A stretch of DNA of 64,000 bases, taken from Deltaproteobacteria bacterium HGW-Deltaproteobacteria-19 (lineage in GTDB: Bacteria > Desulfobacterota > Syntrophia > Syntrophales > PHBD01). The stretch spans positions 1-64,000 of the forward strand of contig PHBD01000011.1 of the NCBI GenBank assembly GCA_002841865.1, in the 5' to 3' direction. The position numbers and the translations under genes are program-made. The notes below the pieces were generated by a model, which was not told the DNA's origin, searched no databases, and saw only the letters and a program-made list of their open reading frames with translations. Positions 53,920 through 62,871 of the stretch are shown piece by piece; position 1 is the first letter of the stretch, and each line of letters opens with the position of its first letter.

Positions 53920-54095
53920 AAAAGCAGCCCGTTCCGGGCGCGTCCGGAAGGCTGTGTCCATCGTTCCTGCTCGTGGGCCGTTGCGCGAGGCGGTCTCCCG
54001 GAACGGCTGCCTGTATTCTTTTTCAAAAAGAGCAACCTGTTGCTCCCCCCTGCCGGACTTTTCGTTTTGCCGTGCCGATGGATGTTTCATTCGGT

Positions 54096-54131
54096 GAACA
54101 ACATATGGATTCTCCATGCAGCATGTTGTTC
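54096..54131. promoter_or_regulatory. Putative enhancer-binding-protein site 1 (inverted repeat)
   Basis: GAACAACAT (54096-54104) and ATGTTGTTC (54123-54131) form a perfect 9-bp inverted repeat with an 18-base spacer. It ends 74 bases before the -24 box of the sigma-54 promoter at 54205. A matching element stands 73 bases before the second sigma-54 promoter. Such spaced palindromes are the normal binding sites of sigma-54 activators. Confidence 0.6.
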
Positions 54132-54204
54132 GTAATTTCCTGTCCGCTCCGGTCGAACAATCTGTATTATGCCGATATCATTAACTTGTAATCTCGTCGC
54201 AAGA

Positions 54205-54220
54205 TGGTATCCTTCTTGCG
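54205..54220 (+). promoter_or_regulatory. Sigma-54 promoter 1
   Basis: TGGTATCCTTCTTGCG, with GG and GC exactly ten bases apart and TTGC at -12. It matches the -24/-12 consensus well apart from T for C in TGGCA. It lies 346 bases upstream of the nitronate monooxygenase start. Confidence 0.6.
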
Positions 54221-54252
54221 ATTCCGTTCTCCAGGTACCAGGCAAGTCACCG

Positions 54253-54269
54253 GCCCCGGCGGCCGGGGC
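54253..54269 (+). other. GC-rich hairpin early in the sigma-54 leader
   Basis: GCCCCGG (54253-54259) pairs with CCGGGGC (54263-54269) with a 3-base loop, about 20 bases after the predicted transcript start. It is followed by AAACGTCTTTT rather than a pure T-run. It may be an attenuator or simply a structured leader. Confidence 0.3.
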
Positions 54270-54565
54270 AAACGTCTTTTCCTTACTTTTCCCGCAGCAG
54301 ATCCGAACAAGGCGATGCTCAAGATCATCAATCTTTCGACGCCCCGCCATTCCAGCCTGATCCTCGAGACGGACGGAAAAAGAAGCGCTTTGTCGTCGTC
54401 GAACCGGTCCACGAACCTGGGACGCCCCGGTAAATGCGTGGGGCCGGGCAGATTCGCGGGCCTGAAGGCGATGCATGCAGATAACCGGCGGGTGAAAGGA
54501 TGATCGAGATCCCGTGATGCCGGGACGGTGCCCGCTGCAACCCGATTCATGAAGGAGGGGCGAGG

Positions 54566-55483
54566 ATGAAGGTTCCGGGGAAAATCCGGACGGAACTGAC
54601 GGAGATGCTGGGCATCGACTACCCTATCATCGGGGCGCCGATGTTTCTCGTCTCCTACGAGAAACTCGCGGCGGCGGTTTCCCTGGCCGGAGGGCTGGGG
54701 ACGCTTCCACTGCCGAATTTCCGAACCGTCGATGAACTGCGGCGGACCCTCGAATCAGTCCGCCGCTGCACCGACCGCCCCATCGGGGTGAACATCCACC
54801 TGTCGGGCAAGTTCGCCTGGCGGGAGCAGATGGCGGTCTGCCTGGACTTCGGCGTACGCTTCTTCCTGACTTCCCTGGGAGACCCGCAGTTGATTCTCGA
54901 CGCCGTACACGGGAAGGGCGGCGTTGTCTTTGCCGATGTCGTCTCGCTTCGCCAGGCCCTCCGCGCCCGGGAAAAGGGCGTCGACGGCCTGGTGGCCGTG
55001 GGCTCCGCCGCGGGCGGGCACTCCGGGACAACTCCCACCATGATTCTCGTTCCCTATTTGAAGGCGAAGACCGGCCTGCCCATCGTGGCTGCCGGAGGCG
55101 TCAGCACCGGCGCCCAGATGGCGGCGGCCATTGCCGTCGGGGCCTGCGGTGTGGTTGTGGGGACACGGCTGATTGCCACTCCGGAGGCCCGGGTCGCGAA
55201 GGCTTACAAGGATGCCGTCGTCCGCGCCGATCCCGACGACATCGTCACGAGCGACCGGATTACCGGAAACCCGGCCAACTGGCTGGCGGAGAGCATCCGG
55301 GTCTTCGATGAGCGTCCCGATCCCGCCTCGAAGCGGTGGCGGGACTTCTGGAGCGCCGGTCGCAGCGTGGCCCAGACGGAGGAGGTCCGCCCCGCCGGGG
55401 AGATCGTCCGGGAGATGGCGGCGACCTATTTCGAGGCGGTCCGCGTCCTGAAGGGGACGCTGCCCGGGGAAGACCCGCGTTGA
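54566..55483 (+). CDS. Nitronate monooxygenase/enoyl reductase-like FMN protein
   Basis: A 305-residue TIM-barrel flavoprotein of the NPD/FabK family. YPIIGAPMFLVS at the start, GGLGTLPL, GVNIHLSG, VAVGSAAGGHSG (FMN phosphate/active-site loop) and the AAGGVSTGAQM and GVVVGTRLIAT barrel-end motifs are characteristic. It oxidises nitronates or reduces enoyl thioesters depending on subgroup. GAAGGAGG precedes the ATG. The shared sigma-54/inverted-repeat control with the acyl-CoA operon suggests a role in that pathway. Confidence 0.87.
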   Translation: MKVPGKIRTELTEMLGIDYPIIGAPMFLVSYEKLAAAVSLAGGLGTLPLPNFRTVDELRRTLESVRRCTDRPIGVNIHLSGKFAWREQMAVCLDFGVRFFLTSLGDPQLILDAVHGKGGVVFADVVSLRQALRAREKGVDGLVAVGSAAGGHSGTTPTMILVPYLKAKTGLPIVAAGGVSTGAQMAAAIAVGACGVVVGTRLIATPEARVAKAYKDAVVRADPDDIVTSDRITGNPANWLAESIRVFDERPDPASKRWRDFWSAGRSVAQTEEVRPAGEIVREMAATYFEAVRVLKGTLPGEDPR

Positions 55484-55835
55484 TGTTCTCGCACCCACGC
55501 CTCGGCGGGAAAGTCAGACCCGGATTATCCGGGAAAGACAGTGCCCGGGAGGCGGGCTTCCCTGCGCTCAGAAGCGTTTTCTGACCCTGCAGCGTCTCGC
55601 TCCGCTGCAACGTCAAAACTCGCGCCAAGGCGCAGAGACGGATGACTTTGCAAGCGCTGCACTGTGACGGCAGGGTGCCCGGAAAAAGCCTTTATTCGCG
55701 CTCCGGGAAGCGCCTCTTCCTTGCATCCGCGGGGGCGCGGTCGGGTTCCCGAATAAGCAATAGATTTGAAATCTCTTCTTTTTTCCGCCTCCTGGAAGAA
55801 CCGGGCCGGAATTCATGTCCCCTCGGCGGGAAAGC

Positions 55836-55872
55836 GCACAACATACAGGTGGTCCTGCGCAACATGTTGTGC
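55836..55872. promoter_or_regulatory. Putative enhancer-binding-protein site 2 (inverted repeat)
   Basis: GCACAACAT (55836-55844) and ATGTTGTGC (55864-55872) form a perfect 9-bp inverted repeat with a 19-base spacer. The core ACAACAT...ATGTTGT is the same as in site 1. The right arm also lies in a CAACATGTTG palindrome. It ends 73 bases before the sigma-54 promoter. Confidence 0.62.
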
Positions 55873-55944
55873 AGAATGAGGGGGCACACCTCCCCACGTT
55901 ACTGTAACTATCAGATATAAAAAAGATATATACGTTCCAGCGGA

Positions 55945-55960
55945 TGGCATCGATCTTGCA
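55945..55960 (+). promoter_or_regulatory. Sigma-54 promoter 2
   Basis: TGGCATCGATCTTGCA matches the -24/-12 consensus (TGGCAY ... TTGCW) with one mismatch at the R position; GG and GC are ten bases apart. The transcript would begin near 55972, about 95 bases upstream of the SDR gene that opens the operon. Confidence 0.72.
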
Positions 55961-56064: not shown

Positions 56065-56829
56065 TTGGATACTTCTTACTTGGCCCTGGAAGGAAAGGTA
56101 GCTCTCGTGACAGGCGGGAGCCGCGGGATCGGCAAGGCCATCGCCCTGGCCCTGGCCGATGCGGGGGCGGATGTGGCGGTCGTCAGCCGCAAACTGCCGG
56201 ACCTGGAGATCGTGGCGGAGGAGATCCGCGCCAAGGGGCGGCGCGCCCTGGCCGTCTCAGCCCACATGAGGGAGGTGGAAGAGATCCGCAAGATGGTGGA
56301 GGCCGTCAAGAACGAATTCGGCCGGATCGACATCCTGGTGAATAACGCCGCCACGAATCCCGGCATGGGACTCCTCGTGGACATGGAAGAGAAGATGTAC
56401 GACCAGATCATGAACACGAACCTCAAGGGCTATACCATGACGAGCATCCTGGTCGGCAAGATCATGCAGGCCCAGAAGAGCGGCAACATCATCAACATCT
56501 CCTCCGTGGGCGGCGTGTCGCCTGACATCGGACTTGGCCTCTACTGCATCAGCAAGGCCGGCATCAATATGATGACCCGGGCGATGGCAAAGGAGATGGG
56601 ACCCTACGGGATCCGTGTCAACTGCATCGCCCCCGGTGTCGTGCAGACCAAGTTCAGCAAGGCCCTCTGGACGAACGAGCCCCTGCTGAAGCAGGAGATG
56701 GGTCATACGCCCCTCGGGCGGATCTCCCAGCCGGAAGAGGTGGGAAGGGTAGCCCTGTTCCTGGCCTCGGACGCCTCGTCCTACATGACCGGCCAGATCC
56801 TTGTGGCCGACGGCGGCGGCTCCATTTAG
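56065..56829 (+). CDS. SDR-family oxidoreductase
   Basis: A 254-residue classical SDR with TGGSRGIG, NNAAT, the serine in NISSVGG, YCISK (Tyr-Lys pair) and GQILVADGG. It uses a TTG start at 56065 with AAAGGAGAA six bases upstream. It is the first gene behind sigma-54 promoter 2. It likely acts as a hydroxyacyl-CoA dehydrogenase or an alcohol dehydrogenase for the pathway encoded downstream. Confidence 0.88.
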   Translation: MDTSYLALEGKVALVTGGSRGIGKAIALALADAGADVAVVSRKLPDLEIVAEEIRAKGRRALAVSAHMREVEEIRKMVEAVKNEFGRIDILVNNAATNPGMGLLVDMEEKMYDQIMNTNLKGYTMTSILVGKIMQAQKSGNIINISSVGGVSPDIGLGLYCISKAGINMMTRAMAKEMGPYGIRVNCIAPGVVQTKFSKALWTNEPLLKQEMGHTPLGRISQPEEVGRVALFLASDASSYMTGQILVADGGGSI

Positions 56830-56921: not shown

Positions 56922-58367
56922 ATGGGTTTGATGACAGCGCAGGAATACAGGGACAGTCTGAACGACGGCCGCATCGTCTACTACAAGGGCCGGAAGATCG
57001 AGAACGTGGCAACGGATCCCGATCTGATGGCCTGCGTCGAGACCGTTGCCGTCGATTATCTGATGGCCCACGATCCCAAATACAAGGACCTGGCCCTCGT
57101 CTATGACGAGGAACTGGGAGAAAACATCAGCCGGTACAACCACGTACCGAAGAACGGGGAGGACCTGCTCAAGCACCTGGAGCTCATCATCAAGGCGACG
57201 GAGCTGGGTGACGGGTACATTCCCCTGGCCCACGACATCGGCGCCGACGCGATGAACGCCATTTCCATCACGGCACGGACGATGGGGGATGCAGGGAAGG
57301 TCTACCTGGAGCGGATCGAGAACTACCGGACGTACCTGAAGAAGACCGACAAGTGCGTCGTTGCCGGTGTCACCGACGTAAAGGGCGACCGGAAGCTCCG
57401 GCCCTCCGATGCGGGCCAGGCCCATCCGGATTTCCACGTTCGGGTCGTCGACAAAAACGACGAGGGTGTCATCGTCCGCGGCGCAAAAGTCCACATCACC
57501 GGGGCAGCCTACTGCAACGAGTTCTTCGCGATTCCCTGCCGGGCCATGAGCGGCCCGGAAGACGCCCCCTACGCGATCGCCTTCGCCATCCCGGCGAACA
57601 CGAAGGGGATCCGCCAGATCGTCCGGCCTTTCCACGGGCGGATCAGCGATATGGAGTTCCCCCTCGAGAGTCCTCTCCGGCGGATGCACACGGACTCCCT
57701 GATCATCTTTGACGACGTCTTCGTCCCCTGGGATCGGGTCTTCCTGTGCGGCGAGTGGAAAATGGCCGCCACGATGGTCTACAACTTCGCGCTGATGCAC
57801 CGCCGCACGGGCTGCGCCTACCGCATCCCGCTGAGCGAACAGCTGCTGGGCGTTGCCGTGGCCATCGCGGATTACAACGGCGTGAGCGACGCCCCCCACG
57901 TCCGGGAGAAAATCACCGAGCTGGTCATCTACCTGGAGACCCTCTCGGCCCTGTCCCGCTCGGCCTGCCTTGATTTCGTGAACCACGCGGGAATCCCGGT
58001 GCCGAACCCCATCACGACGAACATCGCCAAGTACCACTTCGCCCACAACTACCACAAGGTCTGCGAGATCATCCAGGACCTGGCCGGCGGCCTCCTTGTG
58101 ACGGCGCCGACCTACAAGGACTGGCAGAATCCCGAGACCCAGGAAGACATCAAGAAGTACCTGCAGGGGAAGGCCTCCGTCCCGACGGAAGACCGGCTGC
58201 GCATGTTCGACCTGATCCGCCGGATTACCTCGGCGGACCTGGAGACGATCTGCCTGCATGGCGAGGGCTCCCCCTTCGCCGAGCGGATGACGATATTCAT
58301 GGAGGCCAGGAAGATCATCGGCCGGTGCAAGGGCATCGCCGAAGGTCTCGCGGGCATCAAGAAGTGA
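56922..58367 (+). CDS. HpaB/4-hydroxybutyryl-CoA dehydratase superfamily flavoprotein
   Basis: A 481-residue protein with the acyl-CoA-dehydrogenase-like fold typical of HpaB and AbfD (YIPLAHDIGADAMNAISIT, TDVKGDRKLRPSD, ARKIIGRCKGIAEG). AbfD needs three cysteines and one histidine for its [4Fe-4S] cluster (C99, C103, H292, C299). Here residues 90-115 have no cysteine at all, while MHRRTGC (His 293, Cys 298) keeps only a His/Cys pair. It is therefore probably not an Fe-S dehydratase; a flavin-only isomerase or hydroxylase-type enzyme are alternatives. AAAGGAGG precedes the ATG. Confidence 0.78.
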   Translation: MGLMTAQEYRDSLNDGRIVYYKGRKIENVATDPDLMACVETVAVDYLMAHDPKYKDLALVYDEELGENISRYNHVPKNGEDLLKHLELIIKATELGDGYIPLAHDIGADAMNAISITARTMGDAGKVYLERIENYRTYLKKTDKCVVAGVTDVKGDRKLRPSDAGQAHPDFHVRVVDKNDEGVIVRGAKVHITGAAYCNEFFAIPCRAMSGPEDAPYAIAFAIPANTKGIRQIVRPFHGRISDMEFPLESPLRRMHTDSLIIFDDVFVPWDRVFLCGEWKMAATMVYNFALMHRRTGCAYRIPLSEQLLGVAVAIADYNGVSDAPHVREKITELVIYLETLSALSRSACLDFVNHAGIPVPNPITTNIAKYHFAHNYHKVCEIIQDLAGGLLVTAPTYKDWQNPETQEDIKKYLQGKASVPTEDRLRMFDLIRRITSADLETICLHGEGSPFAERMTIFMEARKIIGRCKGIAEGLAGIKK

Positions 58368-58500
58368 CGGGTCGGCGGGCGGGGCCCCTTTCCCCCGCCC
58401 GCCGGGTTGCAGCAATCATTGAAGACAGGACGTACGCCTCCGGGGGCGTGGCCTTCGAGCCCCGCTCGCCCGGATGTGGAACGGAGAAGGAGCAGTTACC

Positions 58501-59967
58501 ATGATCGGTATCGTATCGTACGGGGGTTACATCCCCCGCCTGCGGCTCAGCCGCAAGGTCATCGTCCAGAACATGGCATGGTATTCGCCCGTCATCTTCG
58601 CCTATGCCCAGGGGGAAAAGGCTGTAGCCAACTGGGACGAAGACGCCCTCAGCATGGCCGTCAACGCCGCCTGCGACTGCCTGGCCGGGCAGGAGAAGGC
58701 CGCTGTCGATGGCGTGTACCTCGCCTCGACGACCCTTCCTTACGCAGACCGGCTGAATGCGGACATCCTGGCGACAGCCCTCCACGTCCGTGAAGCCGGG
58801 CTTGGTGCTGCCGACTTTACGGGCTGTCTCAAGGCGGGCACCACCGCACTGATCTCCGCCCTGGATGCACTGGCGGCAGGCAAGAAGAAGTCCGTCCTCG
58901 TGGCGGCGGGCGACCAGCGCCGGACAAAAATGGCCTCGGCCCAGGAAATGCTTTACGGCGACGGGGCGGCGGCGCTTCTCGTGGGCGGCGACCGGGTCAT
59001 CGCCGAGTTCCAGGACAGCTATTCCGTCAGCTGCGATTTCGCGGACCACTATCGCGGGGCCGGCAAGGAATTCGACTATTCCTGGGAAGAGCGGTGGGCC
59101 CGCGAACAGGGGTTCGGAAAGATCATTCCCGAGGCGATCACGGGCTTCCTGAAGAAGACCGGCACGTCCATCGGGGACTACGACCGGATCGTCTACCCCT
59201 GCTACTTCGCCGCGACGCACGCGGGGATTGCCCGGCGGCTGAAGGCGGACCCGGCAAAGGTTCAGGACCCCATGCACGCCGTCTGCGGAGACACGGGGGC
59301 GGCCCATCCGCTCGTCCTTCTGCTGGCAGTCCTGGAGGAGGCGAAACCGGGCGACCGGATCCTCCTGGCTGGCTTTGGCCAGGGATGCGATGTCCTCTCT
59401 TTCCGGGTGACCGAGGAGATCCGGAACCTGAAACCGCGCCGCGGCATCCGGGGCTCCCTGGCGAACCGGGCGGAGATGACGAACTACGCCAAGTACATCA
59501 AGTTCCGGGACCTCATCGAGGCGGACCTGGGCATCCGGGGAGAGGCCAATCCCAACGCGTCCCTGACGATTCTATGGCGGAACCGCGCGAAGCTCCTTGG
59601 CCTCGTGGGCGGGAAGTGCCGCGGCTGCGGGACGCCCCAGTATACCTTCACGCCGGTCTGCGTGAATCCCGACTGCCAGGCCATCGGCCAGATGGAAGAC
59701 TACGAGTTTGCCGACAAGGGCGGCGCCGTCTTCATGTATACGGGAGACATGCTGGCCGCCTCCGTCGATCCGCCGGCCATCTATGGCATCGTCGACTTCG
59801 AGGGTGGCGGGCGGCTCCTGGCGGACTTCACGGACTGCACGCTGGACGCCATCCGCGTCGGGCTTCCCGTACGGATGTCCTTCCGGAGGCGGGTGAAGGA
59901 CGACATGCGGGGTTTCACGGGCTATTTCTGGAAGGTCGTTCCGCAAGCGACCGAAGCGAGGAGCTGA
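58501..59967 (+). CDS. HMG-CoA synthase-like protein fused to a DUF35 (zinc ribbon/OB) domain
   Basis: A 488-residue fusion. The N-terminal 330 residues resemble 3-hydroxy-3-methylglutaryl-CoA synthase-like thiolase-fold enzymes, with a nucleophile-type Cys in FTGCLKAGTTAL and VYPCYFAATHAG. The C-terminal 130 residues form a DUF35 protein with CRGCGTPQYTFTPVC (zinc ribbon) and an OB-fold. The ATG at 58501 has AAGGAG upstream. It may condense acyl-CoA units or split a beta-hydroxyacyl-CoA. The ATG of the next gene follows 3 bases after its stop. Confidence 0.83.
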   Translation: MIGIVSYGGYIPRLRLSRKVIVQNMAWYSPVIFAYAQGEKAVANWDEDALSMAVNAACDCLAGQEKAAVDGVYLASTTLPYADRLNADILATALHVREAGLGAADFTGCLKAGTTALISALDALAAGKKKSVLVAAGDQRRTKMASAQEMLYGDGAAALLVGGDRVIAEFQDSYSVSCDFADHYRGAGKEFDYSWEERWAREQGFGKIIPEAITGFLKKTGTSIGDYDRIVYPCYFAATHAGIARRLKADPAKVQDPMHAVCGDTGAAHPLVLLLAVLEEAKPGDRILLAGFGQGCDVLSFRVTEEIRNLKPRRGIRGSLANRAEMTNYAKYIKFRDLIEADLGIRGEANPNASLTILWRNRAKLLGLVGGKCRGCGTPQYTFTPVCVNPDCQAIGQMEDYEFADKGGAVFMYTGDMLAASVDPPAIYGIVDFEGGGRLLADFTDCTLDAIRVGLPVRMSFRRRVKDDMRGFTGYFWKVVPQATEARS

Positions 59968-59970
59968 ACC

Positions 59971-61179
59971 ATGGCGACAGGAATTCGAGACAAGGTGGCC
60001 ATCATCGGGATGGGCTGCTCCCGGTTCGGAGAGCGGTGGGACGCGGGTCCCGACGACCTGATGGTGGAGGCGTTCCAGGAGTGCATCGCCGACGCGGGCA
60101 TTGAAAAGAAACAGATCCAGGCGGCCTGGTTCGGGTCGTGCCTGGACGAGGTCAACGTGGGCAAGAGCGCCCTTCCGCCGTCCATGGCGCTTCGCCTCCC
60201 CAATATCGGGGTGACGCGAACGGAGAATTACTGCGCCAGCGGGACGGAGGCCTTCCGGGGGGCCGTCTACGCCGTGGCCTCTGGCGCCTACGATATCTGC
60301 ATGGCCATCGGTGTGGAGAAGCTGAAGGACATCGGCTACGCGGGCCTCCCCGATTTCGCTTCCGGCATGGGCATGACAAACGTCCAGTGGTTCCCGAACA
60401 TGACCGCGCCGGGCTGTTTCGCCATGCTGGGCAGCAGCTACGCGGCCAAGTACGGCATCGACATGAAGGAGCTGAAGCGAGCCATGGCGCACGTGTCCGC
60501 CAAGAGCCACGCCAATGGGGCACTGAATCCGAAGGCGCACCTCAGGAACCCCGTGACGGAGGAGATCATCCTGAAGTCGCCCATGGTGGCCTATCCCCTG
60601 GGACTCTTCGACTGCTGCGGCGTCTCCGACGGATCGGCCTGCGCCATCGTGGCCACGCCGGAAATCGCCCGGAGCCTGGGCAAGAAGGACTTCGTCACTG
60701 TCAAGGCGCTTCAGGTCAGCCTCAGCAACGGCGAGGAGATGTCCTACACAAACTGGGACGGCTCGGGCTTCGTCACCGCCGCCAAGGCCAGCACCGAGGC
60801 GTACCGGGAAGCCGGGATCACCAATCCGCGCGAAGAGATCAGCATGATGGAGGTCCACGACTGCTTCTCCATCACCGAACTCATCACCATGGAGGACCTG
60901 CACATCTCCTCGCGGGGCCAGGCGACAAAGGACATCATGGACGGTTTCTATGACCTCTCCGGCAAGGTCCCCTGCCAGGTTGACGGGGGGCTCAAGTGCT
61001 TCGGCCATCCCATCGGTGCCTCGGGGCTCCGGATGATCTACGAAATGTATCTCCAGATCCACGGCCGGGCCGGGGAGCGGCAGCTCAAGGACCCGAAATT
61101 CGGCCTCACCCACAACCTGGGCGGCTTTCCGTTCATGAACGTCTGCAGCATCGCCATCGTCGGGAAGCAGGACGCCTGA
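59971..61179 (+). CDS. Thiolase-family protein (SCP2-like) with intact nucleophile cysteine
   Basis: A 402-residue thiolase-fold protein. The nucleophile cysteine is present in ENYCASGTEAF, the HDCFSITELI motif resembles SCP2-type thiolases, and GHPIGASG supplies the catalytic histidine. The C-terminal NVCSIAIVG retains a Cys. It probably cleaves a beta-ketoacyl-CoA. It is followed by a second thiolase-like gene, a DUF35 gene and a MaoC gene. Confidence 0.9.
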   Translation: MATGIRDKVAIIGMGCSRFGERWDAGPDDLMVEAFQECIADAGIEKKQIQAAWFGSCLDEVNVGKSALPPSMALRLPNIGVTRTENYCASGTEAFRGAVYAVASGAYDICMAIGVEKLKDIGYAGLPDFASGMGMTNVQWFPNMTAPGCFAMLGSSYAAKYGIDMKELKRAMAHVSAKSHANGALNPKAHLRNPVTEEIILKSPMVAYPLGLFDCCGVSDGSACAIVATPEIARSLGKKDFVTVKALQVSLSNGEEMSYTNWDGSGFVTAAKASTEAYREAGITNPREEISMMEVHDCFSITELITMEDLHISSRGQATKDIMDGFYDLSGKVPCQVDGGLKCFGHPIGASGLRMIYEMYLQIHGRAGERQLKDPKFGLTHNLGGFPFMNVCSIAIVGKQDA

Positions 61180-61255
61180 GATCTCCACCGACCGCGGCGG
61201 GCAGCGGACAACGCCTCCACCGGGTCGGGTGAATCGCGAAGCAAGGAGGAAGTAT

Positions 61256-62440
61256 ATGAGCAAGCTGAAAGGAAAGGTCGCCATCGTCGGGATCGGCGAG
61301 GTGCCGACGGGACGTTTTCCCGAGACGGCGGCCATCTACCACGGCATGGCCTCGGCCAAGATGGCCATCAAGGACGCGGGGATCGACAAGGACGAGATCG
61401 ACTACGTCATGCCGACGGGAGCCCTCTACAGCCCGGCCTTCAATACGGAGCTCGTCACCTGCCGCATCGCCGAGGAACTGGGCCTCAAAAACGTGAAGAA
61501 GAACTGCCAGATCTTCGCCGGCGGCTCCAGCAGCACCTGTGCCCTCGAGATCGCGGCGGCCCTCATCTACAGCGGCGCCGCGTCGATGATCCTCTTCGTC
61601 CACGCAGATAAGCTGGGCACGGGGGTCACCGCCCAGGGCGCGATCGACCTCTTCTCCACGGCGGGCATCTCGGCGGAGTGGGAGGTTCCCTACGGCCAGC
61701 ACTATTCTGCGGTGACCGCCCTCTCGACGATGCGCTACATGTACGAGACGGGCTGCACGGACGAGCACATGGCGGCGGTCTGCGTCTCCAACCGGAGATG
61801 GGCACAGTTGAATCCGAACGCCTTCTTCCGCAAGCCCCTCACGATCGAGGAGGTCGTCAAGTCGAAGATGCTCTCCACGCCGCTTCGGGCCAAGCAGTCG
61901 AACATGCTCTTCGACGGCGGGGCGGCCTTCATCGTGACCTCCGCCGAGCGGGCACGGGACCTCGTGGAGAAGCCCGTCTACCTCCTCGGGGAGGGAGGGG
62001 TGGTCACACATTTCGTCTACTCCCAGGAGCCCGACGTGTCCCGGTTCGGGTGGGCGAAGGCGGGCCGGATGGCCTTCGAGGAGTCGGGACTCACCGTGGC
62101 GGACATGGACCTCGCCGAGATCTACGACTCCTACCCCATCTTCCAGATCATCGGCTTCGAGGAGTTGGGGTTCTGCAGGCGTGGTGAAGGAGGAGAGATC
62201 TTCCTCCGGGGCGACACCTGGCCGGGAGGCCGGATTCCCTGCACCACCAACGGCGGCATGCTCTCCCAGGGCCACACGGGAGCCGGTGGTTCCGTAGCGA
62301 TCCTCGTGGAGACGGTCCGGCAGCTCATGGGCAAGGCGGGAGAGCGCCAGGTGCCGAACGCCCGGTTTGCCGTGGAGACGGCTGTGGGCGGGACCTATAT
62401 GGACGCCCAAGTGTCCATTCTCGGAACAGAGATCCCTTAG
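61256..62440 (+). CDS. Thiolase-fold protein lacking the nucleophile cysteine
   Basis: A 394-residue protein of the same superfamily. At the place of CASG it has FAGGSSSTCA, so the nucleophilic Cys is replaced (Ala by alignment with the upstream copy). QGHTGAGG still supplies a histidine, but the second Cys near the C-terminus is lost. Such degenerate members (Ltp2-type) act with DUF35 partners as retro-aldolases. AAGGAGG precedes the ATG at 61256; an in-frame ATG at 61229 is not favoured. Confidence 0.85.
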   Translation: MSKLKGKVAIVGIGEVPTGRFPETAAIYHGMASAKMAIKDAGIDKDEIDYVMPTGALYSPAFNTELVTCRIAEELGLKNVKKNCQIFAGGSSSTCALEIAAALIYSGAASMILFVHADKLGTGVTAQGAIDLFSTAGISAEWEVPYGQHYSAVTALSTMRYMYETGCTDEHMAAVCVSNRRWAQLNPNAFFRKPLTIEEVVKSKMLSTPLRAKQSNMLFDGGAAFIVTSAERARDLVEKPVYLLGEGGVVTHFVYSQEPDVSRFGWAKAGRMAFEESGLTVADMDLAEIYDSYPIFQIIGFEELGFCRRGEGGEIFLRGDTWPGGRIPCTTNGGMLSQGHTGAGGSVAILVETVRQLMGKAGERQVPNARFAVETAVGGTYMDAQVSILGTEIP

Positions 62441-62454
62441 AGAGGAGGAACGAC

Positions 62455-62871
62455 ATGGACGCACCGAAGAAACCCGTCCCCGTGGTGAACCCCTGGGCGA
62501 AGCCCTTCTGGGACGCCGCAAAGGAAGAACGGTTCATCATCCAGAAGTGTGCGGATTGCGGAAAATACATCTTCTATCCGCGGATCGCCTGTCCCCACTG
62601 CTTTTCCGACGCCGTCGAGTGGTTTCCCGCCTCGGGACGGGCAACCGTCTACACCTACACCGTTGTCGAGAGCAACGCCCCCTCGGCCTTCATCGCCGAC
62701 ATGCCCTATGTCATTGCCGTGGTCCGGCTGGAGGAGGGAGGGGTCCAGATGCTGACCAACATCGTGGGCTGCAAGCCCGAGGATGTCCGTTGCGACATGC
62801 CCGTGGAGGTCGTCTTCGAGAAGCTGAACGACGACTTCAATCTGCCCAAGTTCCGACCCGCGGCGAAGTAA
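62455..62871 (+). CDS. DUF35 zinc-ribbon/OB-fold protein
   Basis: A 138-residue DUF35 protein. The rubredoxin-like zinc ribbon CADCGKYIFYPRIACPHC is followed by an OB-fold domain (ATVYTYTVVES). DUF35 proteins are partners of thiolase-fold enzymes (for example Ltp2 and ChsH2 in steroid catabolism). The position just after the Cys-less thiolase gene fits a complex of the two. Confidence 0.9.
   Translation: MDAPKKPVPVVNPWAKPFWDAAKEERFIIQKCADCGKYIFYPRIACPHCFSDAVEWFPASGRATVYTYTVVESNAPSAFIADMPYVIAVVRLEEGGVQMLTNIVGCKPEDVRCDMPVEVVFEKLNDDFNLPKFRPAAK

Follow-up and report, generated by a model that had tools for sequence, protein, structure and literature searches.

Matched enhancer and sigma-54 promoter pairs in a Syntrophales genome point to one regulon with a candidate TPR-GAF activator

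Gene content of the locus

The window analyzed is a stretch of 64,000 nucleotides on contig C31 of the draft assembly (3.98 Mb, 87 contigs) of Deltaproteobacteria bacterium HGW-Deltaproteobacteria-19; many of the relatives used for comparison are metagenome-assembled. Its distal part carries two enhancers (UASs) with sigma-54 promoters, designated P1 and P2, and the genes behind them, all on the forward strand. The gene nearest to P1 (54566-55483) encodes a nitronate monooxygenase/FabK-like flavoprotein (NMO-like), which scored 143 bits against PF03060 (gathering score 28) and fell under the cut-off of the FabK model. The first gene behind P2 encodes an SDR oxidoreductase with a TTG start (56065-56829), in keeping with the preliminary description, which had placed the second site before an SDR/thiolase operon. 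It is followed by a gene for an enzyme of the HpaB/4-hydroxybutyryl-CoA-dehydratase fold (56922-58367) and by genes for an HMG-CoA-synthase-like/OB protein, two thiolase-like proteins and a ChsH2-type OB/zinc-ribbon protein (58474-62871).

The nearest PDB entry to the HpaB-fold protein is 1u8v, a 4-hydroxybutyryl-CoA dehydratase. The window's enzyme is not of the Fe-S type; in the alignment with 1u8v, the two Cys of TASCFQRC and the Cys after HRQSYGGC were not conserved and the His alone was kept, residues which we take to be the [4Fe-4S] ligands of 1u8v. Homologues 56-58% identical to the HpaB-fold protein were observed in Dehalococcoidia (L119-L121). The HMG-CoA-synthase-like and first thiolase genes (58434-61234), located between the HpaB and second thiolase genes, are missing there in the same-genus genome G020 and are present in the related clusters L104 and L105.

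Enhancers and sigma-54 promoters in the window

The P1 enhancer (GAACAACAT-N18-ATGTTGTTC, 54096-54131, forward strand) and the P2 enhancer (GCACAACAT-N19-ATGTTGTGC, 55836-55872, forward strand) contain the cores ACAACAT-N18-ATGTTGT at 54098-54129 and ACAACAT-N19-ATGTTGT at 55838-55870, respectively. The right half of the P2 enhancer, GCGCAACATGTTGTGC, is a near-perfect 16-bp palindrome. Downstream of the enhancers lie the -24/-12 elements TGGTATCCTTCTTGC (54205-54219, forward strand) and TGGCATCGATCTTGC (55945-55959, forward strand), both with the canonical GG-N10-GC spacing. Repeats and promoter elements were thus found where the preliminary description had reported them. With the left arm's first base as the starting point, the distance to TGG is 109 bp at both promoters, while the end of the full arm lies 73 bp (P1) and 72 bp (P2) from TGG. 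The matched geometry claimed earlier was confirmed; its values of 74 and 73 differ from these according to where the arm is taken to end.

The chance expectation of the core repeats in the window was 0.00. The genome-wide search for the repeat that had been proposed yielded two exact copies, both at the window's promoters, and no excess of the motif was seen elsewhere in the genome. The pattern TGGNAN6TTGC occurred in the window at 54205 and 55945 only, with approximately 1.5 occurrences expected by chance. Since bare -24/-12 motifs are no commoner than chance in 64 kb, the case rests on the arrangement of enhancer and promoter, and it is for this arrangement that the earlier judgment of chance as unlikely holds. 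The genome encodes rpoN (PF04552 at C18:183562-184038, E 1.7e-65).

A further palindrome resembling the enhancer half-sites, GAGCAACCTGTTGCTC, was observed at 54030-54045, 50 bp upstream of the P1 enhancer. It has no counterpart in G020 and is possibly part of the terminator of the preceding gene.

Promoter P1 in the genus

Both promoters are present in unchanged order in G020. There, P1 has the arms GCGCAACAT/ATGTTGTGC and the -24/-12 counterpart TGGCATCCTTCTTGC (L055:11361), and P2 has the arms GCACAACAT/ATGTTGTGC with an identical TGGCATCGATCTTGC (L055:19744); the P2 enhancer is also kept in L056 and in other genomes. The genes after P1 in G020 are, in order, livF, livG, an AMP-forming acyl-CoA ligase gene, livH, livM, a periplasmic binding protein gene and, last, the NMO-like gene, with the intact transporter/ligase operon spanning L055:11473-18164. 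Relative to G020, approximately 6.6 kb is missing behind P1 in the window. The scar (54315-54503, forward strand) joins the start of livF, of which the first 20 bases remain (54315-54334), to the end of a frameshifted binding-protein gene, whose C-terminal remnant begins at 54351; the remnant ORF has 62 codons. The NMO-like gene lies directly behind P1 because this deletion removed the operon between them. Misassembly is a less likely explanation of the scar, since the binding-protein remnant has diverged. A genome-wide search for the deleted binding protein, run without a positive control, gave no match at E 1e-40.

The comparison indicates that P1 formerly served a branched-chain-type ABC transporter/acyl-CoA ligase operon together with the NMO-like gene, and that the NMO-like gene is its sole target now. 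The preliminary description, in which the first site precedes a nitronate monooxygenase gene, is accordingly right for this genome and does not extend to relatives, in which P1 heads the transporter/ligase operon. P1 represents a recent example in which loss of an intervening operon has moved a gene up to a promoter.

A third promoter and conservation beyond the genus

A third promoter, P3, was located on contig C6 upstream of an FAD oxidoreductase gene (GCACAACATATGGAC...AACAACAT with TGGCACTTTCTTTGC; enhancer at C6:18767, 110 bp from left arm to TGG). The right arm of its enhancer is degenerate in this genome. The gene, whose product is 81% identical to the G026 homologue, heads the Desulfomonile-type operon and stands alone on C6 here. 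The same arrangement was present in G020, G025, G026, G027 and G112, the last of which has a perfect P3-type UAS and promoter and no EBP (bacterial enhancer-binding protein) orthologue at the threshold used. The G112 gene with its strong enhancer and sigma-54 promoter (L237; G112:C61:78984-80600) contains an in-frame TAA.

The combined enhancer and sigma-54 pattern occurred in exactly three places in this genome and in three in G020. Across 155 genomes of the order, 12 of its 17 places were promoters of this kind, and the reversed control gave four matches. Exact matches to the arms were also found in G014, G015, G032, G040, G041 and G101, none of which were among the combined matches. As a search motif, the 12-bp palindrome RCAACATGTTGY (one mismatch allowed) yielded 18 places and seven in the reversed control, and was uninformative alone.

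Genomes G025, G026 and G027, close relatives of one another from another family, contain both operons, each with an equivalent enhancer and sigma-54 site, and their clusters encode HpaB-fold proteins 83-85% identical to that of the window. The equal clusters L101-L103 have UASs with the EBP absent from the fetched stretch; in G025-G027 it is encoded farther along the contig. Furthermore, when 65 HpaB-related loci of named genomes were scanned, enhancers paired with CGG/TGG -24/-12 elements were seen in five more Desulfobacterota-type loci, namely L107 (Desulfomonilaceae), L114 (Desulfatiglandales), L115 (a Desulfomonile tiedjei MAG), L117 (a Deltaproteobacteria MAG) and, more weakly, L118 (Desulfobacterales). 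In L107, L114, L115 and L117, an EBP orthologue of 67-70% identity is oriented divergently to the orthologous operon, with the UAS between the two; in this operon the FAD oxidoreductase gene comes first and is followed by the HpaB gene. The fetched stretches of L104, L105, L106, L113 and L119-L121, in which the HpaB gene is present, had no UAS, sigma-54 site or EBP. G095 had neither an EBP orthologue nor an enhancer and sigma-54 promoter at its SDR gene.

Enhancer anatomy and a putative IHF site

The distance from left arm to TGG was 108-114 bp in 21 of 24 promoters, the exceptions being 96, 100 and 124 bp. The aligned enhancers gave the consensus GCRCARYATATGGATK for the left arm and AAACRRCATRTTGTGC for the right, and each half contains an invariant C-N8-G dyad around an AT center. 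The gap between the arms is 18-20 bp, which places the dyad centers 20-22 bp apart. Because the gap varies and the dyad recurs in both halves, each enhancer probably comprises a tandem pair of dimer sites separated by two helical turns, a reading preferred to that of one large inverted repeat. The repeats described earlier are hence real, while their label as inverted repeats probably is not the best one.

Between enhancer and promoter, 15 of 18 promoters carry a sequence of the IHF type (YAAN4YTGATW, no more than two mismatches) that lies 40-41 bp upstream of TGG; other registers gave matches in zero to two of the 18. An IHF site approximately 40 bp upstream of TGG is therefore probable in most promoters. 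At P2, the IHF-like site TAACTATCAGATA (55905-55917, reverse strand, one mismatch) occupies this fixed register. The best P1 candidate, TATCATTAACTTG (54176-54188, forward strand, one mismatch), is accompanied at the common register by a weaker reverse-strand match with two mismatches at about 54165-54177.

Candidate activator

No activator gene lies in the window, as had been stated, and the likely EBP gene starts 9.5 kb past its end (C31:73537-76692, reverse strand), 17.7 kb downstream of the P2 enhancer and adjoining neither P1 nor P2. Its product is the sole sigma-54 EBP on C31, out of approximately 30 in the genome. The predicted protein of 1051 aa has a TPR-GAF-AAA+-HTH architecture, beginning with a TPR region about 550 residues long that is followed by the GAF domain. 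The AAA+ sigma-54 interaction domain (PF00158, Sigma54_activat, E 2.2e-69) contains GAFTGA at residue 817 and the Walker A motif GETGVGKE, and a putative C-terminal Fis-type HTH, searched as an isolated C-terminus, matched HTH_8 at E 6.7e-4 with 19.8 bits, slightly below the Pfam cut-off of 22. Three further EBPs of TPR-GAF type, each about 1050 aa and about 35% identical, are encoded on C2, C6 and C13 (L232, L224 and L215, respectively), and the class is common in the order.

An orthologue of the C31 EBP is encoded at the end of the cluster in G020 (92% identity) and in G025-G027 (71-72% over its length). Among the 155 genomes, the degenerate enhancer was found in 17 and an EBP orthologue (at least 44% identity) in 22. 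The two co-occurred in 10 genomes compared with 2.4 expected (P=4e-6, uncorrected for relatedness, so that kinship is ignored), and in nine of these 10 they share a contig. The reversed control of the degenerate enhancer gave three matches, and some of the enhancer matches in genomes lacking an EBP orthologue are probably due to chance. Distant orthologues (44-50%) mostly had no recognizable UAS nearby.

An activator gene with the same motif in its own promoter had been suggested as a further line of evidence; the region of this genome's EBP gene (L057) contains no UAS, giving no sign of autoregulation. In G082 and G110, weak UAS-like repeats closely precede the EBP gene. At L208:204-241 (G110:C16), immediately before an EBP orthologue, the 16-bp dyad TCGCAATATGCTGCGA occurs twice in identical form at a distance of 22 bp, a pair that fits the reading of the enhancer as two tandem dyads.

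Regulon model and alternative explanations

Taken together, P1, P2 and P3 very probably belong to one sigma-54 regulon, whose activator is most likely the TPR-GAF-AAA+-HTH protein encoded on C31. The earlier proposal of one EBP for both promoters is supported, at the level of sequence, by conservation across families, the linked EBP orthologues, the presence of rpoN and the lack of a motif excess elsewhere. From sites, spacing, conservation and EBP co-occurrence as read in the sequence, we infer binding, bending, activation, signal and substrate as follows. Dimers of the EBP would bind both dyads of a UAS, two helical turns apart, and an IHF-type bend in the spacer of approximately 72 bp would carry the AAA+ ring to the sigma-54 RNA polymerase at -24/-12. 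Once the TPR/GAF region senses its signal, ATP hydrolysis would open the promoter. The targets would be the NMO-like gene (P1, at present), the SDR-HpaB-thiolase operon (P2) and the FAD oxidoreductase gene on C6 (P3).

Another EBP of this genome might instead be the activator, with some 30 to choose from and the C6 member of the three TPR-GAF paralogues encoded about 6 kb from P3. This is very unlikely, given that G026 and G027 keep all three UAS promoters with the orthologue of 72% identity as their sole match at the threshold and none to a paralogue, and that the orthologue is divergent beside the UAS in four loci. The surroundings of 20 paralogous EBPs (363 kb) also contained no enhancer of real-site strength, their top motif scores being 16-19 compared with 21-31 for most real sites. 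Recognition helices point the same way, reading PPSTLAFRM or PASTLAFRM in the UAS-bearing orthologues and mostly of KRTTL- or NRTTL-type in the approximately 35% identical paralogues; as the paralogue helices are not uniform (L222 reads KPTTLEFRI), these differences are supportive only. It is extremely unlikely that the repeats are operators of a non-sigma-54 regulator, such as an acyl-CoA metabolism repressor of the TetR or MarR type, beside coincidental -24/-12 motifs. Many repressors typically use inverted repeats, and chance alone would place the bare motif in the window 1.5 times; however, in 24 promoters from many genomes the -24/-12 element is conserved at a constant distance from the repeat, the repeat is in an activating rather than a blocking position more than 70 bp upstream, and the conserved linked regulator is a sigma-54 EBP.

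Membership of P1 is a separate matter. It could be a non-functional leftover of the transporter deletion, with P2 (and P3) alone still active, as the loss of the operon, the failure to find the binding protein elsewhere in the genome, and drift relative to G020 in the arm ends (GCGC to GAAC) and the -24 element (TGGCAT to TGGTAT) would suggest. Against this, P1 has kept its ACAACAT/ATGTTGT cores, its GG-N10-GC element and its 109-bp spacing intact, and the NMO-like gene downstream, which belongs to the regulon in G020 as well as in G025-G027, retains its direction and reading frame. A defunct P1 is thus rather unlikely.

The genes of the proposed regulon encode a branched-chain-type ABC transporter, acyl-CoA ligase, SDR, HpaB-fold enzyme, FabK/NMO-like flavoprotein, thiolase-type proteins and FAD oxidoreductase, an inventory that would suit a carboxylic acid being taken up, activated with CoA and oxidized. 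More specifically, and with a likelihood just short of even, this may be a hitherto undescribed regulon for anaerobic catabolism that is widespread among Desulfobacterota. An organic acid would be taken up by the branched-chain-type ABC transporter, activated with CoA and converted by the HpaB-fold enzyme (lacking Fe-S ligands), the FAD oxidoreductase and a BbsB-like thiolase/OB pair. The TPR-GAF EBP would sense the substrate or its CoA ester and act through enhancer, IHF site and promoter, arrayed with almost constant geometry. No description of the regulon was found in the literature searched. Two motif sightings have become a regulon that can be put to the test: a candidate activator has been named, the enhancer has a consensus, P3 adds another target gene, and a bend site is probable. 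The regulon also joins an unexplained gene cluster as one functional unit. As proposed, it spans sulfate reducers, both cultured and uncultured, and bacteria of the syntroph type.

Comparison with known systems

In Desulfovibrio vulgaris, sigma-54 regulons usually have a palindromic UAS less than 100 nt from -24/-12 and the regulator gene beside the target operon (Kazakov et al. 2015, PMC4641369). That study likewise describes one- or two-component EBPs, UASs with -24/-12 elements and regulons derived by comparative genomics, while the UAS sequence and target genes differ here; its text mentions neither a tetratricopeptide-type EBP nor a branched-chain transport regulon. IHF is needed for the sigma-54 promoters of the orp operons of this related sulfate reducer (PMC3897727); the IHF site proposed here is a prediction from the consensus and its constant register.

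The arrangement resembles aromatic-responsive promoters of the XylR/DmpR type, in which an upstream UAS, an IHF bend (predicted here) and a sigma-54 promoter control catabolic operons. XylR acts through paired UASs. The active form of DmpR is a tetramer built from two dimers (PMC7264223), an assembly that would suit two dyads per UAS here. Unlike XylR/DmpR, the present system has a TPR and GAF sensor, another UAS sequence and dyad centers 20-22 bp apart. The best curated models over the GAF-AAA+ part of the EBP were NifA, the formate hydrogenlyase activator (FhlA) and NorR, all below their cut-offs, and EBPs of these types differ from the C31 protein, in which the long TPR region precedes GAF. 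As far as sequence comparison goes, the regulon is new and the type of switch is already known.
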